Of a stretch of 38,716 nucleotides of DNA, positions 17,621 through 30,600 are shown piece by piece. Source of the stretch: Armatimonadota bacterium (lineage in GTDB: Bacteria > Sysuimicrobiota > Sysuimicrobiia > Sysuimicrobiales > Kaftiobacteriaceae). The stretch covers positions 30,271 through 68,986 of the forward strand of contig JAVHLZ010000006.1 in the NCBI GenBank assembly GCA_031081675.1. The letters are read 5' to 3'. Every line of letters begins with the position of its first letter. Positions within the stretch are counted from its first letter, which is position 1. The position numbers and the translations under genes are program-made. The notes beneath the pieces are model-generated. The model was not told the DNA's origin. It was given only the letters and a program-made list of their open reading frames with translations, and made no database searches.

Positions 17621-17697
17621 TGGTGGGCGGTGCAGGACTTGAACCTGCGACCTCATCCATGTCAAGGATGCGCTCTGGCCACCTGAGCTAACCGCCC
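17621..17697 (-). tRNA. tRNA-Val (anticodon GAC), CCA encoded
   Basis: The minus strand folds as a full cloverleaf. Acceptor GGGCGGT pairs with ACCGCCC, discriminator A, and CCA is encoded (17621-17623). The D arm is GCTC...GAGC. The anticodon stem CATCC/GGATG encloses loop TTGACAT, giving anticodon GAC for valine codons GUC/GUU. The T arm is GCAGG TTCAAGT CCTGC. Confidence 0.96.
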
Positions 17698-24287: not shown

Positions 24288-25490
24288 TTACCCCGGGGAC
24301 AGCAGGTCGGCTACGGGGATGCGGATGAGCACATCCGGGGGCAGGAGGGCCGCCAGGCGGTGTTCCCGGGCCCGGTGGATCACGGGCTCCAGGGCGCCGT
24401 CCAGGCCGCTGAGGGTGTCCACCACGACCACCCCCGCCTCCCGGACCTCGGGAGGCACCGGCTGGTCGCACACCAGTACCGGTACCACCGGCCATCCCTG
24501 GTGCGTCAGGCGCGCGGCGGCGTCCTGCAGGCCCGCCACGTCGGCGGGATCGGGCATTCCCTCCCGCACCCGGAAAACGACGACCGTCCCGCCCAGGCAG
24601 GCCGCGCCGTCCACCGGGCCGCCCCCCGCGTGCACCGCGACTTCTTCGGCGCCGGCGCGGCGCAGCGCCGACTCCACCAGGCCCACCACCGCCTGCCGGT
24701 CCGGCGGATGCAGGGCGACTTCCGTGAGGAGGTAGGCCGTGTCCCGTTCTTCGTCCCCCACCCGGGCGCCGCAATGCGGGCAGAGCACATCCAGGGAGGC
24801 GTAGGTGGCGATCTCGTTTGCCCGGGGGGAGGCGGCCAGCCACTGTCCCCCCTGGCGGCAGATGACCACGTGCCAGCGGTCCACCGCCCCGACCGCCACC
24901 AGCCGCTCCAGGGTCTCCCGGACCGTCTCCGGCGGCCGGTCGTTCAGCAGGGAGGGTGCCCGCGACGCGAGCACGGCGGGGCGGCCGCGAAAGGCGGGCT
25001 GACGGCGCAGCGCGGCCAGGACCTGCTCGGAGACGGGATCGCGCGGCAGGGAGATCATTCCCCCGTTGGGGGTCAGGCGCAGGGCGGTGAGGACGTCCCG
25101 GCGGAAGCGCTCCGCCACCGGCTCTCCCTCCGCCGGCGCCTCGACCAGCCGTCCCTCCACGGCCCCGTCCAGATGCAGCCGGGTCGCCGTCAGGACCTTC
25201 CGGACCGCCTGCTGATCCCTCCCGACCACCACCATCCGCAGGATCTTCGGCGAATGCAGGACCAGCAGGAGGCGTACCCCGGGGTGGGCCGGCGGGATGA
25301 AGACGTCCGTGAAGGGGTCACTGCGGAGCACAGGACGGCGCGCCGGCCCCGGGCGGGCAAACCGGGTGACGGCCTCCTGGACGCCGGCCAGCAGGCCCTG
25401 GTAGCCGCTGTCCACCAGGCGGGCGCGGATGGCGGCGAGGACCTCCGGCTCCCAGGCGGGTCGCTGGAAGTCGACGCGCTCGACGTACAT
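24288..25490 (-). CDS. Uncharacterised 400-residue protein with a CPHCG knuckle
   Basis: I do not recognise this protein. It is soluble, with no signal peptide or TM segment. Residues 1-130 are mixed alpha/beta (VRLLLVLHSPKILRMVVV). A middle part (about 150-245) has helix-turn-helix-like spacing (RPPETVRETLERLVAVGAVDR) followed by a lone CPHCG pair near residue 236, half of a zinc ribbon. The last 150 residues look like an alpha/beta domain with GAACLGGTVVVFRVREG. That stretch has the shape of a PD-(D/E)xK strand pair but lacks the Glu-x-Lys, so any nuclease idea is speculative. It is divergent from the response regulator, with 154 bp between the starts, and precedes the dehydrogenase on the same strand. 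Confidence 0.82.
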   Translation of the reverse strand: MYVERVDFQRPAWEPEVLAAIRARLVDSGYQGLLAGVQEAVTRFARPGPARRPVLRSDPFTDVFIPPAHPGVRLLLVLHSPKILRMVVVGRDQQAVRKVLTATRLHLDGAVEGRLVEAPAEGEPVAERFRRDVLTALRLTPNGGMISLPRDPVSEQVLAALRRQPAFRGRPAVLASRAPSLLNDRPPETVRETLERLVAVGAVDRWHVVICRQGGQWLAASPRANEIATYASLDVLCPHCGARVGDEERDTAYLLTEVALHPPDRQAVVGLVESALRRAGAEEVAVHAGGGPVDGAACLGGTVVVFRVREGMPDPADVAGLQDAAARLTHQGWPVVPVLVCDQPVPPEVREAGVVVVDTLSGLDGALEPVIHRAREHRLAALLPPDVLIRIPVADLLSPG

Positions 25491-25559
25491 GGGGCGGACC
25501 GGCGCACAGAGCGCCTACAGAGGCCTATTCCCCGGAGAGGGCGCGCACAGACGGGCTCT

Positions 25560-25608
25560 GGCACGCTTTGTGCCTCCCGCAGGAGGGGGCAGACCCGCCC
25601 TCCGGCGG
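25560..25608 (+). promoter_or_regulatory. Chain of three small stem-loops upstream of the response regulator
   Basis: GGCAC-GCTTT-GTGCC (25560-25574), CCTCC-CGCA-GGAGG (25573-25586) and CCGCC-CTCC-GGCGG (25595-25608). The first two overlap by two bases and so exclude each other. This sits in the gap between divergent genes and may be a structured 5' leader or an operator region. No known riboswitch class was matched; in particular the c-di-GMP (GEMM) consensus is absent. Confidence 0.45.
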
Positions 25609-25644
25609 AGGAGATCCCCGGGCAGGACAGCCAAAGTGCTCTCC

Positions 25645-26565
25645 ATGATGATCGGCCGCACCGGACGGCTGCTCGTCGCCGAAGACGACGAGAGCCTGCG
25701 CAATCTGCTGGTCCGGTACTTCGCGTCCCTGGGGCACACGGTCGATGCCTGTGCCGACGGGGCCACGGCGATCGCCCGGGTGGCCACCACCGCCTACGAT
25801 GTGATCATCACCGACATCCTCATGCCGGGCGCCGGAGGCCTGGAGGTGATGCGGGCTGCCAAAGCGGCCGATCGGTTTGTGGAAGTCGTCATCCTCACCG
25901 GCGCCCCCGACCTGTCCACCACCGTCCGGGCGCTGCGGGAGGGGGACGCCTTCGACTACATCCTCAAGCCCTTCCCCAACGTGGAAATCCTGCGGGCCAC
26001 CGTGGACCGGGCCCTGGAACGCCGCCACCTCCGGCAAGAGAACGAGCGCCTGGCCCGGGAACTGCGCCAGTTCCAGGCCACCGATCCCCTGACCGGCACC
26101 CTCAACCGCCGGGCGTTCTTCGATCAGGGGGAACCGCTGCTGGCCCGCGCGGTCCGCCACCAGGAACCGCTGTCCCTGATCATGGTTGACCTGGACGGGT
26201 TCCGGGACGTCAACGAGCGCCTGGGACCCACGGTGGCCGATGCGGTCCTCGCCCGGTGCGCCCAGATCTGCCGCGAGCAGCTGCGGGCGGAAGACCTGCT
26301 GGCGCGGTACTGGGCCGACAAGTTCGTGTGCCTGTTGCCGGTCACCGGCCTTTCCGACGCCGCCCTGGTGGCGGAGCGGATCCGCTCGGCCATCGCGGCG
26401 GCCCCCCTGTCCGCCGACGGACAGGCGATCCCGGTCCGGGCCAGCGCCGGTGTGACCTCCCGTCAGGCGGCCGACCGGTCCCTGGACACCCTGGTGCGCC
26501 GCGCCGAGCGCGCCCTGCGCCGGGCCAAAGAGCGCGGCGGCAACCAGGTGTGGACGGAGGGGTAG
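25645..26565 (+). CDS. Response regulator with REC and degenerate GGDEF domain
   Basis: The 306-residue protein joins an intact receiver domain to a GGDEF domain that has probably lost catalysis. REC residues: Asp14-Asp15, phospho-acceptor Asp57 in YDVIITDILMPG, Thr85 and Lys108 (ILKPF). A coiled linker (about 125-145) leads to DPLTGTLNRR (147-156) and MVDLDGF (180-186). At the active site GG(D/E)EF is replaced by WADKF (223-227), while the inhibitory-site RxxD is kept as RAED (214-217). The protein may therefore sense c-di-GMP rather than make it. Start ATG 25645 has a weak Shine-Dalgarno; ATG 25648 and GTG 25636 are alternatives. The stop is one base from the end of the convergent transposase gene. 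No histidine kinase is adjacent. Confidence 0.9.
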   Translation: MMIGRTGRLLVAEDDESLRNLLVRYFASLGHTVDACADGATAIARVATTAYDVIITDILMPGAGGLEVMRAAKAADRFVEVVILTGAPDLSTTVRALREGDAFDYILKPFPNVEILRATVDRALERRHLRQENERLARELRQFQATDPLTGTLNRRAFFDQGEPLLARAVRHQEPLSLIMVDLDGFRDVNERLGPTVADAVLARCAQICREQLRAEDLLARYWADKFVCLLPVTGLSDAALVAERIRSAIAAAPLSADGQAIPVRASAGVTSRQAADRSLDTLVRRAERALRRAKERGGNQVWTEG

Positions 26566-26566
26566 G

Positions 26567-27139
26567 TCACTCGAACTCGCGGGCCGGCGGGCGGGCCAGC
26601 CGCTCTTCAACGAGCAGCGCGTACTCCCGCGCCGCCCGCTCCGGCGATGCGCCCAGCATGCCCAGGAGGCACTCCGTGGTCACCCACCCCCGGACCTCCG
26701 GCCGCAGGTACAGGAGGTGGCTGGACCAGGGGTAGTCTTCGGGGCGACTGACCAGCCCCGCCCGAACCGGGTTCAGGTGGATGTAGGTCACCGCCTCCAG
26801 CAGGTACGCGTCCCGATCGCACGGTTGGGACCAGAATCGGTCGGTGAAGACATGCCCCCGGGTTCCGTGCCGGCGGTTGAGTCCCTGCGCGTAGACCTGG
26901 AGGACGCGCTGCATCAGGAGGGCCAGGGGCACGTCGGACACCTCCACCACCAGGTGCGCGTGGGTGCTCATCAGGCAGAAGGCGTGAACCCGGGCGCGGA
27001 AGGCCGGAAGGTATCGCCGCAGGGAGGCCACAAAGGCCTCCCGGTCGACGTCGTCCGCGAACAGCGCGGTCCCCCGAGTTGCCGTGGCTCCCACGTGGAA
27101 GAATGCGTGCAGAGGCGCCACCCGCGGCTTTCTGGCCAC
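26567..27139 (-). CDS. REP-associated tyrosine transposase (RAYT, Y1_Tnp/IS200-like)
   Basis: RAYTs are domesticated-looking relatives of IS200/IS605 transposases that act on REP palindromes. The 190-residue protein has the family start ARKPRVAPLHAFFHVGATATRG and the HUH motif as HAH (60-62, in MSTHAHLVVE). The catalytic Tyr is about residue 83 in QVYAQGLNRRHG. HVFTDRFWS and the signature YIHLNPVRAGLV follow. GTG 27139 was chosen because it matches the family N terminus and follows GGTGAG; a start at 27208 would add 23 unrelated residues. Palindromic repeats lie just upstream at 27241-27312, as expected for a RAYT/REP unit. Confidence 0.92.
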   Translation of the reverse strand: MARKPRVAPLHAFFHVGATATRGTALFADDVDREAFVASLRRYLPAFRARVHAFCLMSTHAHLVVEVSDVPLALLMQRVLQVYAQGLNRRHGTRGHVFTDRFWSQPCDRDAYLLEAVTYIHLNPVRAGLVSRPEDYPWSSHLLYLRPEVRGWVTTECLLGMLGASPERAAREYALLVEERLARPPAREFE

Positions 27140-27240
27140 CAGCTCACCACGACCCTCCCACCAATCGGTACCGCGGCCACCGTACCGCCTTTCCCGGTCG
27201 GCCACCATGCCCCAACCGAGCCACTGCCCCCTGCCCCCTC

Positions 27241-27312
27241 GGGGTCTGTCCCCATCGGGGTCTGTCCCCGGTCCAGGCGGATGGGGTCTGTCCCCGCCGG
27301 GGACAGACCCCA
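27241..27312. repeat. REP-like cluster: four copies of GGGGTCTGTCCCC
   Basis: Exact direct copies of the 13-mer lie at 27241-27253, 27257-27269 and 27283-27295, with one inverted copy GGGGACAGACCCC at 27299-27311. Copies three and four form a 14-bp stem (27282-27312) with a 3-nt loop. Each copy is itself near-palindromic (GGGG...CCCC). The cluster sits between the transposase and the nitroreductase gene and may also terminate transcription of the latter. Confidence 0.92.
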
Positions 27313-27320
27313 GAAGTCGG

Positions 27321-27842
27321 CTACCAGCGATCGTGGTGGACCAGCGATTCCAGCGGCCGGCGGCGGTACCGGGGAGGGCGTTCGGCGGGATACCCCACGG
27401 GAATGAGGCCTACCGGCAGGACGTGGGGTGGCAGTCCCAGGACGTCCCGCACCGCGTCGTCGTCGAACGCGCCCACAAAACAGGCCCCCAGGCCTTCGTC
27501 CACCGCCCCCAGGAGGATCAGCATGCTGGCGAACGCGGCGTCGACGATACTGTACCGCCGCACGCCGCGCTCACCGTACCGGGCGGCGCTGCGCCGGGTG
27601 TCGGCGCACACGGCCAGGACCACCGGAGCGGCCCCCACCCAGGTCTGACCCCAGGCGGCCTGAACCAGCCGCTGGCGCACCGCGGGGTCCCGGACCACCA
27701 CGAACTCCACCGGCTGGGTAAAACCGGCGCTGGGCGCCCGGTGGGCATACTCCAGCAGGCGCCGCACGGTGGCCTCCTCCACCGGCCGGGACAGAAACGC
27801 TCGAACCATGCCGCGTCGGCGGACCACCTCGGCGAACTCCAC
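27321..27842 (-). CDS. Nitroreductase-family flavoprotein (small form)
   Basis: FMN-dependent oxidoreductases of this family reduce nitro compounds, quinones or other acceptors with NAD(P)H. The 173-residue protein shows RRRGMVRAFLSRPV at the N terminus (FMN phosphate contacts), HRAPSAGFTQPVEFVVV, VDAAFASMLILLGAVDEGLG and GLIPVGYPAERPPRYRRRP near the C terminus. It is shorter than classical NfsB (about 217). GTG 27842 follows GGGGGGAGGCGG. It starts 14 bp after the lytic transglycosylase stop on the same strand. The physiological substrate is unknown. Confidence 0.9.
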   Translation of the reverse strand: MEFAEVVRRRGMVRAFLSRPVEEATVRRLLEYAHRAPSAGFTQPVEFVVVRDPAVRQRLVQAAWGQTWVGAAPVVLAVCADTRRSAARYGERGVRRYSIVDAAFASMLILLGAVDEGLGACFVGAFDDDAVRDVLGLPPHVLPVGLIPVGYPAERPPRYRRRPLESLVHHDRW

Positions 27843-29962: not shown

Positions 29963-30600
29963 CGGCCCAGCAGGGCGGCCAGAGTCCGGCGGATGGACGC
30001 GGTGAAGTCGTCGATCAGGCGGAGGTCGGGGGGCGGGAGGATCGGATCGCCGACCCGGACGGTCACGCGGGCCGGGCGCGGGACACGCGCCCGCAGGGGG
30101 AGCATGCGGGCCAACCCCAGCAACCCCACCGGCACCACGGGCACCTGGGCCCGGATGGCCAGGAAGGCGGCCCCGGGCTGCAGCGATCCCATCCCCGGCT
30201 GGACCACCCCGCCCTCCGGAAAGACGACCAGCACCTCGCCGCGGGCCAGGCGGTCCAGACAGGCCTTGACCGCCGCCACATCGGGGGCTCCCCGGCGAAC
30301 GAAAATGGGATTGAACAGCCGGATCAGCGCAAACAGCACCGGGTAGCGGTCCAGCTCCCGTCCGGCCAGGTACGTGACCCGGAACGGCATCGCCGCCGAC
30401 AGGACGATCGGATCGATCTCGCTGGCGTGGTTGGCGGTGATGATGAACGGGCCGCGGGGGGGCAGGCGGTCCAGCCCCTCCACCCGCAGCTGCCAGCCCA
30501 CCCGCAGCAGGGTGCGGAAGAACCAGGCCACGAGCCGATAGCCCGGGCCCATGCGTGTGCCCGGATGGCGTGCGCGCTCACGGGCTCCCGCCGGGTGCAT
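29959..30600 (-). CDS. plsC: 1-acyl-sn-glycerol-3-phosphate acyltransferase (PlsC family)
   Basis: PlsC adds the second acyl chain to lysophosphatidic acid in phospholipid synthesis at the inner membrane. The protein (213 residues) has an N-terminal hydrophobic helix (YRLVAWFFRTLLRVGW), motif I NHASEID with His 58 and Asp 63 (HX4D), motif III VVFPEGG and VPVVPVGLLG. ATG 30600 overlaps the rlmD stop as ATGA, a pattern repeated in this genome. ATG 30552 (MGPGYRL) is an alternative that would remove 16 Arg-rich residues. Substrate specificity within the superfamily is inferred. Confidence 0.9.
   Translation of the reverse strand: MHPAGARERARHPGTRMGPGYRLVAWFFRTLLRVGWQLRVEGLDRLPPRGPFIITANHASEIDPIVLSAAMPFRVTYLAGRELDRYPVLFALIRLFNPIFVRRGAPDVAAVKACLDRLARGEVLVVFPEGGVVQPGMGSLQPGAAFLAIRAQVPVVPVGLLGLARMLPLRARVPRPARVTVRVGDPILPPPDLRLIDDFTASIRRTLAALLGR

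Follow-up and report, generated by a model that had tools for sequence, protein, structure and literature searches.

A RAYT transposase gene with a dispersed family of 13-bp palindromes, probably a TIRYT-branch REPtron, in a Sysuimicrobiota genome

We have found a RAYT (REP-associated tyrosine transposase) gene lying beside a small array of 13-bp palindromes that are dispersed over the rest of a Sysuimicrobiota genome, and the locus is probably a REPtron of the TIRYT branch, i.e., an HuH/Y1 single-strand DNA transposase accompanied by its own minimal REP-like family. The joint evolution of RAYTs and REPs is accepted, and the described elements are 20–40 bp long and mostly GTAG-tagged. What is new here is that dispersed palindromes of 13 bp accompany RAYTs bearing the TIRYT signature, and that four sister pairs of enzyme and repeat, differing by a few symmetric bases, are found in one genome of 2.29 Mb (G000, 50 contigs). 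The stretch of DNA analyzed, called the window throughout (38,716 nt), corresponds to positions 30271–68986 of contig C6 of this genome, and its relevant features are collected in Table 1.

Table 1. Features of the window at and around the RAYT locus (positions within the window).
Feature	Position	Strand	Evidence
Response regulator-GGDEF gene, converging on the RAYT	25429–26565	+	Pfam PF00072 and PF00990
RAYT, longest frame (213 aa)	26567–27208	-	NCBIfam NF047646, Pfam PF01797
Y motif Y142-I-H-L-N146-P147 (catalytic tyrosine, Y---NP signature)	26768–26785	-	Alignment
HuH motif H83-A84-H85	26954–26962	-	Alignment
Class A 13-mer, copy 1 (T-centred strand on +)	27241–27253	+	Exact match
Class A 13-mer, copy 2 (16 bp from copy 1)	27257–27269	+	Exact match
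Class A 13-mer, copy 3	27283–27295	+	Exact match
Class A 13-mer, copy 4 (inverted, pairs with copy 3)	27299–27311	-	Exact match
Nitroreductase-family gene, upstream of the array	27321–27842	-	Pfam PF00881, E 1.2e-29
tRNA gene	17624–17697	-	Rfam, sole match in the window

The frame next to the palindromes had been predicted to encode a RAYT, and both profile collections agree: it matches Y1_Tnp above the Pfam cut-off (E 2.2e-6) and REP_Tyr_transpos of NCBIfam with E 1e-20, the latter at 74.1 bits, below the cut-off of 80 bits that is a curated threshold and not a biological feature. Homology to relatives starts at residue 24, the GTG at 27139, which is likely the true start of the gene. Among 48 aligned RAYTs, H83, H85, and N146 are invariant and Y142 is nearly so, and the Y motif aligns to YIYINP of 4er8. 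The distance from HAH (83–85) to Y142xxxNP is 57–59 residues, with a median of 58–67 aa between HuH and Y---NP given for most subclasses of class 2 TnpAREP in the available text of PMC6006769. The protein has HuH and Y---NP in a Y1_Tnp fold, the combination that defines a RAYT (TnpAREP class 2), and the gene, judging by its sequence, is intact. In the structure model (mean pLDDT 83, residues 1–28 below 50) the top PDB match was 4er8, the E. coli TnpAREP with a REP hairpin (E 6.1e-8, TM 0.74 by target), which was also the sole entry found by a profile search (E 6.6e-7). The transposases of the IS200/IS605 group (IS608, ISDra2) share the HuH/Y1 fold, with TM values of about 0.57–0.70 by target length; they differ in carrying Y---Q (PMC6006769, in the portion available) where the window RAYT has Y---NP, and the locus has no IS ends.

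Exact copies of GGGGTCTGTCCCC occur four times between 27241 and 27311 and nowhere else in the window, and 100 dinucleotide shuffles gave none. When two or fewer mismatches are allowed the window count is 7 against 6.09 expected, which is the chance level, so that within the window the exact 13-mer alone is informative. Three direct and one inverted copy had been noted and all four were located, as was the 14-bp stem with a 3-nt loop: copies 3 and 4 pair along 27282–27295 and 27299–27312, including a flanking T-A pair, around the loop GCC. Folded as DNA, this hairpin reaches -15.6 kcal/mol (z -5.6); the fold of one class A 13-mer on its own is weak (-2.9 kcal/mol, z -1.9), and single 13-mers of the classes described below range from -2.6 to -3.4 kcal/mol. 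All copies in the window are confined to the 5' side of the RAYT, and copy 4 ends 9 bp from the nitroreductase stop codon. The predicted distance of about 100 bp upstream of the transposase is correct when counted from the likely GTG start (101 bp) and wrong from the ATG of the longest frame at 27208 (32 bp). We found no terminator-like or promoter-like site at the array, the one terminator-like site of the region lying at 27482–27495, which rules out an intrinsic terminator there. A known RNA family at the array is likewise ruled out, the only Rfam match in the window being the tRNA gene of Table 1.

In the whole genome the class A 13-mer has 19 exact copies (8 forward, 11 reverse), compared with 1 for the reversed-pattern control, and they form six clusters, with four copies each on C6 (the window) and C25, three each on C8, C9, and C10, and two on C43. 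Uniqueness of the 13-mer to this locus, named beforehand as an outcome that would speak against a REP/RAYT unit, is contradicted by these counts. The true number is at least 19, because two contigs, C25 and C43 (loci L014 and L018), break off exactly at a 13-mer; N runs also adjoin 13-mers on C8, C20, and C39, where these short repeats interrupt the assembly. Eight of the 13 successive intervals measure exactly 16 bp (13 + 3), seven of them direct and one inverted, with no conservation of the three-base spacers between class A copies. Mapping of the copies relative to genes, which had been proposed as a check, was done with a GC3 frame scan of the flanks of the six clusters and placed the arrays between likely genes, the scan being unreliable for the clusters at the contig ends (C25 and C43). 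The same scan placed the C9 array between two frames that, from their motifs, we take to be rpsO-like and pnp-like.

This rpsO–pnp spacer allows a comparison with and without the array. Three exact class A copies are present in G000 and none in nine relatives (eight of the family and one of the order), and a conserved point of pnp lies 312 nt away from the rpsO stop codon in the former vs 65–215 nt in the latter. A G+C-rich hairpin after rpsO is, by eye, kept in most family members. These differences fit an array that was inserted or grew at this place in the lineage of the window, in a spacer which is not a clean empty site because the relatives are other genera. At the nitroreductase side no empty site was found, the best relatives (G004 and G012, 44–48% identity) having none of the other window neighbors in the DNA compared.

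Class A is not alone in this genome. G000 contains four RAYTs, two of which exceed the NCBIfam cut-off, and each has its own 13-mer class on the upstream side, no more than about 215 bp from the matched domain: class A, GGGGACAGACCCC, with 19 copies (RAYT on C6, the window); class B, GGGGACAGTCCCC, with 42 exact copies (RAYT on C39); class C, GGGGTCAGACCCC, with 19 copies (RAYT on C34); and class D, GGTGACAGTCACC, with 8 copies (RAYT on C32). A one-mismatch search with class A revealed two of these families, GGGGACTGTCCCC (class B) and GGGGTCTGACCCC (class C). Single-substitution variants of class A number 76 in G000, of which 42 are class B and 19 class C, while the remaining 37 possible substitutions account together for 15 places, four of them inside class A arrays. 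The CAG at the middle of one strand is fixed in the four classes and the arms vary; B, C, and D are perfect palindromes except for the central base, and class A (GGGGAC-A-GACCCC) reads as B in its left half and as C in its right half. The predicted fold of the class A 13-mer is a 4-bp stem with a 5-nt loop holding CAG, and that of classes B–D a 5-bp stem with a CAG loop; the stem positions that differ between classes are 3, 5, 9, and 11. On one side only, 5' of the CAG strand, class C carries an AATTTT tail, and no flank of this kind was seen at A and B apart from neighboring 13-mers. The C34 RAYT has a class C copy on each side, in direct orientation, and in class B 18 of the 30 successive intervals measure 23–25 bp.

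The distribution among relatives follows that of the transposases, with exceptions. Class A was counted in 100 genomes and classes B, C, and D in 44. Exact class A copies number 19 in the genome of origin, 5 in G005, one in each of eleven others, and zero in the rest. The family consists of ten genomes, six with a RAYT match and four with none (G001, G004, G007, and G009), and in these four RAYT-free genomes we found no copy of classes A–D. Equal abundance in relatives without a RAYT, the other outcome named as contrary to the prediction, is therefore not what the counts give. In the RAYT-bearing members, class B has 42 copies in G000, 15 in G008, 11 in G003, 2 in G006, 1 in G002, and 0 in G005; class C has 19 in G000, 14 in G006, 9 in G008, 8 in G003, and 2 each in G002 and G005; and class D has 8 in G000, 4 in G005, 2 in G002, and 0 in the others. 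The RAYT tree groups the class C RAYTs at 92/88, the class D RAYTs at 93/84, and the A/B RAYTs at 99/96, and a second tree is similar. The motif labels of six groups need five changes on the tree, which is the minimum, against a mean of 9.8 when shuffled (0 of 200 shuffles as low), and over the six RAYT-bearing family genomes the observed class placement ranks first of 15 for C and first of 20 for D, and for B it is one of the top 2 of 15. Across the family the 13-mer classes agree with the RAYT clades, the exceptions being G005 (five class A copies, no class A RAYT found), G006 (two class B copies, no B-clade RAYT), G002 and G005 (two class C copies each, no C-clade RAYT), and, outside the family, G019 (four class C copies, no RAYT match). 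A RAYT fragment on contig C98 of G006 was considered as the source of its two class B copies and rejected, as the tree places it in a clade bounded by inverted repeats (see below). The order set comprises 25 RAYT loci, with G026, G037, and one further place in G006 outside it; the latter is probably C98, which was added in the later tree, and with G025 too short the first tree had 24 rows. On G006 C48 and G008 C221 (L305 and L306) nitroreductase-family matches are found near class C copies, as near class A in the window, which may be coincidence.

The original reading of the locus as a REP/RAYT unit is supported by the dispersed copies and by their absence from RAYT-free family genomes, and the sister classes and the motif GGGGWCAG go beyond it. 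A canonical GTAG REP is ruled out. The tag (GT[AG]G at 0–2 nt from the foot) is present at 1 of 19 class A, 0 of 42 class B, and 0 of 19 class C copies, i.e., 1/80, and none of the three sets of loci compared shows an enrichment of GTAG-type strings upstream of the RAYT. RAYTs without GTAG REPs, flanked by terminal inverted repeats that share GGGGWSAS, have been described as TIRYTs (Di Nocera et al., 2013, PMC3733652, available text). Both GGGGACAG, present four times at the window locus, and GGGGTCAG fit this consensus. The octamer GGGG[AT]CAG is enriched upstream of RAYTs of the own order (2.22 vs 0.16 per kb in the control, 14-fold, 9 of 25 loci), of RAYTs outside the order taken from among the matches listed (1.20 vs 0.16 per kb, 7.5-fold, 27 of 82 loci), and of named RAYTs, mostly from Desulfobacterota and Proteobacteria by their record names (1.88 vs 0.15 per kb, 12.5-fold, 40 of 80 loci). 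Among the 60 of the 80 named loci that were inspected, a frequent form is GGGTCAGGCTT running into a CAA-TTGACAA-like stretch, some 40–55 nt before the matched region. The 7-mer GGG[AT]CAG lies upstream in 58 of these 80 loci, and the motif is not universal since 22 are without it. A subset of the named loci (set A2) comprises 47 of the 80, L244 and L251 having been omitted for an in-frame stop.

Perfect CAG-centred palindromes are found upstream in 11 of the 25 order loci, in 2 of the 82 outside the order, and in 2 of the 80 named ones (L185, which is G003, and L212), so a rule by which a CAG-centred 13-mer palindrome accompanies every RAYT fails; what recurs outside the order is the string GGGTCAG and not the palindrome. 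Since the octamer is enriched in the three sets and the palindromes are concentrated in the order (11/25 vs 2/82), the palindromic 13-mer seems to have been derived locally from a TIRYT motif of wide occurrence. In another family of the order (G011 and G028; L093, L094, and L095) the CAG-centred palindromes have other arms, of the GTGCCAGGCAC, GGTACC-, and GGTTCC-types.

Several observations weigh against the REPtron reading, namely the low copy number, the missing GTAG tag, the orphan copies in G005, G006, and G019, the weak fold of the single 13-mer, and the motif being non-universal, and three other explanations have been considered. That a GC-rich genome yields such G-run/C-run palindromes by chance, with the RAYT as a coincidental neighbor, agrees with the two-mismatch count in the window, yet it is refuted by the shuffles (four exact copies vs none in 100) and by the reversed-pattern control (19 vs 1), and 0–1 class A copies were found in all but one of the other 99 genomes; we give it practically no credence. 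The 13-mers might instead be cis-regulatory elements, either of the RAYT itself or of many genes, such as operators for a DNA-binding protein or mRNA-stabilizing or attenuating hairpins, spread by selection and not by the enzyme and only incidentally next to a RAYT. The intergenic position of the arrays by the frame scan, one of them following the rpsO hairpin, and the very stable DNA hairpin of copies 3 and 4 would suit such a role, which we consider rather unlikely given that the array showed neither a terminator-like nor a promoter-like site, that 13-mer class and RAYT clade match across genomes, and that the copies are absent from the RAYT-free members of the family.

A third explanation, which we hold to be quite improbable, is that the 13-mers are decayed terminal inverted repeats of an IS-like TIRYT element that moved the RAYT, the dispersed copies being solo ends. 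GGGGWCAG is indeed a signature of such terminal repeats (PMC3733652, in the text available), the C34 RAYT has class C copies on both sides, and the family does include an inverted-repeat clade. In this clade long RAYTs (L077, L084, and L090, on G002 C156, G005 C268, and G008 C88, respectively) are bounded by inverted repeats in an IS-like manner, those of G002 and G005 being about 24 bp long and starting with GGGGTCAGGTCTT. However, the window copies all lie on one side of the gene, the C34 pair is direct and not inverted, and the exact 13-mers are arranged in tandem arrays with 3-nt spacers, not as paired ends.

The REPtron reading, which we favor, can be placed among the systems described so far. 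With TIRYTs (or TIRtrons) the locus shares the RAYT-type HuH/Y1 protein and the GGGGWSAS motif beside the gene; unlike them, no terminal inverted repeats flank the window RAYT, the copies on both sides of the C34 RAYT are direct, and the motif in the window is part of a 13-bp palindrome repeated in tandem on the 5' side. Some families of TIRs were described as having repeated genomic copies that form dimers or clusters (PMC3733652, same available text). TIRYTs probably correspond to TnpA-Y1 subclass 2.1 of Quentin et al. (2018), who placed 20 of 26 TIRYTs there and, in the part of their text available, did not find REP-like sequences near subclass 2.1 genes (PMC6006769). The RAYTs described here differ from the subclass as surveyed in that REP-like sequences adjoin them. 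A C-terminal HTH is a criterion of subclass 2.1, and in the 213 aa of the window RAYT Pfam returned no HTH family.

As in the REPtrons of E. coli, Stenotrophomonas, and Marinomonas (PMC8266576, available text), the RAYT lies by clustered palindromes with dispersed intergenic copies and each enzyme has its own REP family, as was also reported for each tnpAREP (Quentin et al., 2018, PMC6006769, in its accessible part). The differences from the GTAG REPtron, as far as the text of PMC8266576 is available, are the foot (1/80), the length of 13 bp vs 20–40 bp, the 19 copies, and the fixed CAG center. Classical REPs usually exceed 100 per genome (PMC2817692, available text), and the copy numbers of 19 (A, a lower bound), 42 (B), 19 (C), and 8 (D) are below that figure. 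A search of the literature for the letters of the 13-mers, in open-access text only, returned nothing on bacterial repeats, with GGGGTCAGACCCC and GGGGACAGTCCCC in no paper.

From these comparisons we infer how the RAYT may act on its 13-mers, from binding and nicking to mobilization, with the strand marked and the stem read by the enzyme. It would bind the 13-mer hairpin on one strand, presumably GGGGACAGACCCC in class A, by analogy with E. coli TnpAREP, for which both binding and cleavage involve one strand of the REP in folded, single-stranded form (PMC8266576, text available). The asymmetric CAG center is proposed to mark the strand, because apart from it the B, C, and D 13-mers, taken without flanks, are symmetric, and the base pairs of the stem arms would tell class from class; some positions in the loop of small group 3 REPs are intolerant of any change (same source and extent). 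Having nicked the DNA adjacent to the hairpin, the RAYT would go on to copy 13-mers, or move them, to intergenic sites that often adjoin a copy already present, and such insertions could produce the 16-bp steps of class A and the 23–24-bp steps of class B. The weak fold of single 13-mers suggests that for binding the DNA would have to be transiently single-stranded or the copies paired.

Much more tentatively, this genome may hold four RAYT/13-mer pairs that do not mix, with REP-like elements smaller than any in the papers cited here, in which CAG would be a universal strand mark and a few stem pairs the whole address of the enzyme, class A being perhaps a hybrid of B and C that founded its own pair and offering a snapshot of the birth of a new REP class. 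The question of specificity narrows here to a small number of base pairs, which can be exchanged in vitro and for which the natural paralogues control one another, and the four enzyme-repeat pairs offer a small natural test bed for the joint evolution of enzyme and repeat in a little-studied phylum.

A different arrangement is found in a neighboring genus. In G008 and G006 (L291–L297) class B 13-mers come in pairs exactly 77 bp apart (once 78). Most pairs are inverted, many have a second motif, TGACTCAnnnnGGCTA, that follows the 13-mer at a constant distance, and the interiors are otherwise unlike; G008 alone has six such pairs at 77–78 bp, five inverted and one direct. These pairs may be REPIN-like composites, some copies being inverted pairs at fixed spacing as in REPINs (Bertels and Rainey, 2011, PMC3116915, in the text available), unlike class A in G000, which is mostly in direct tandem with one inverted pair in the window.
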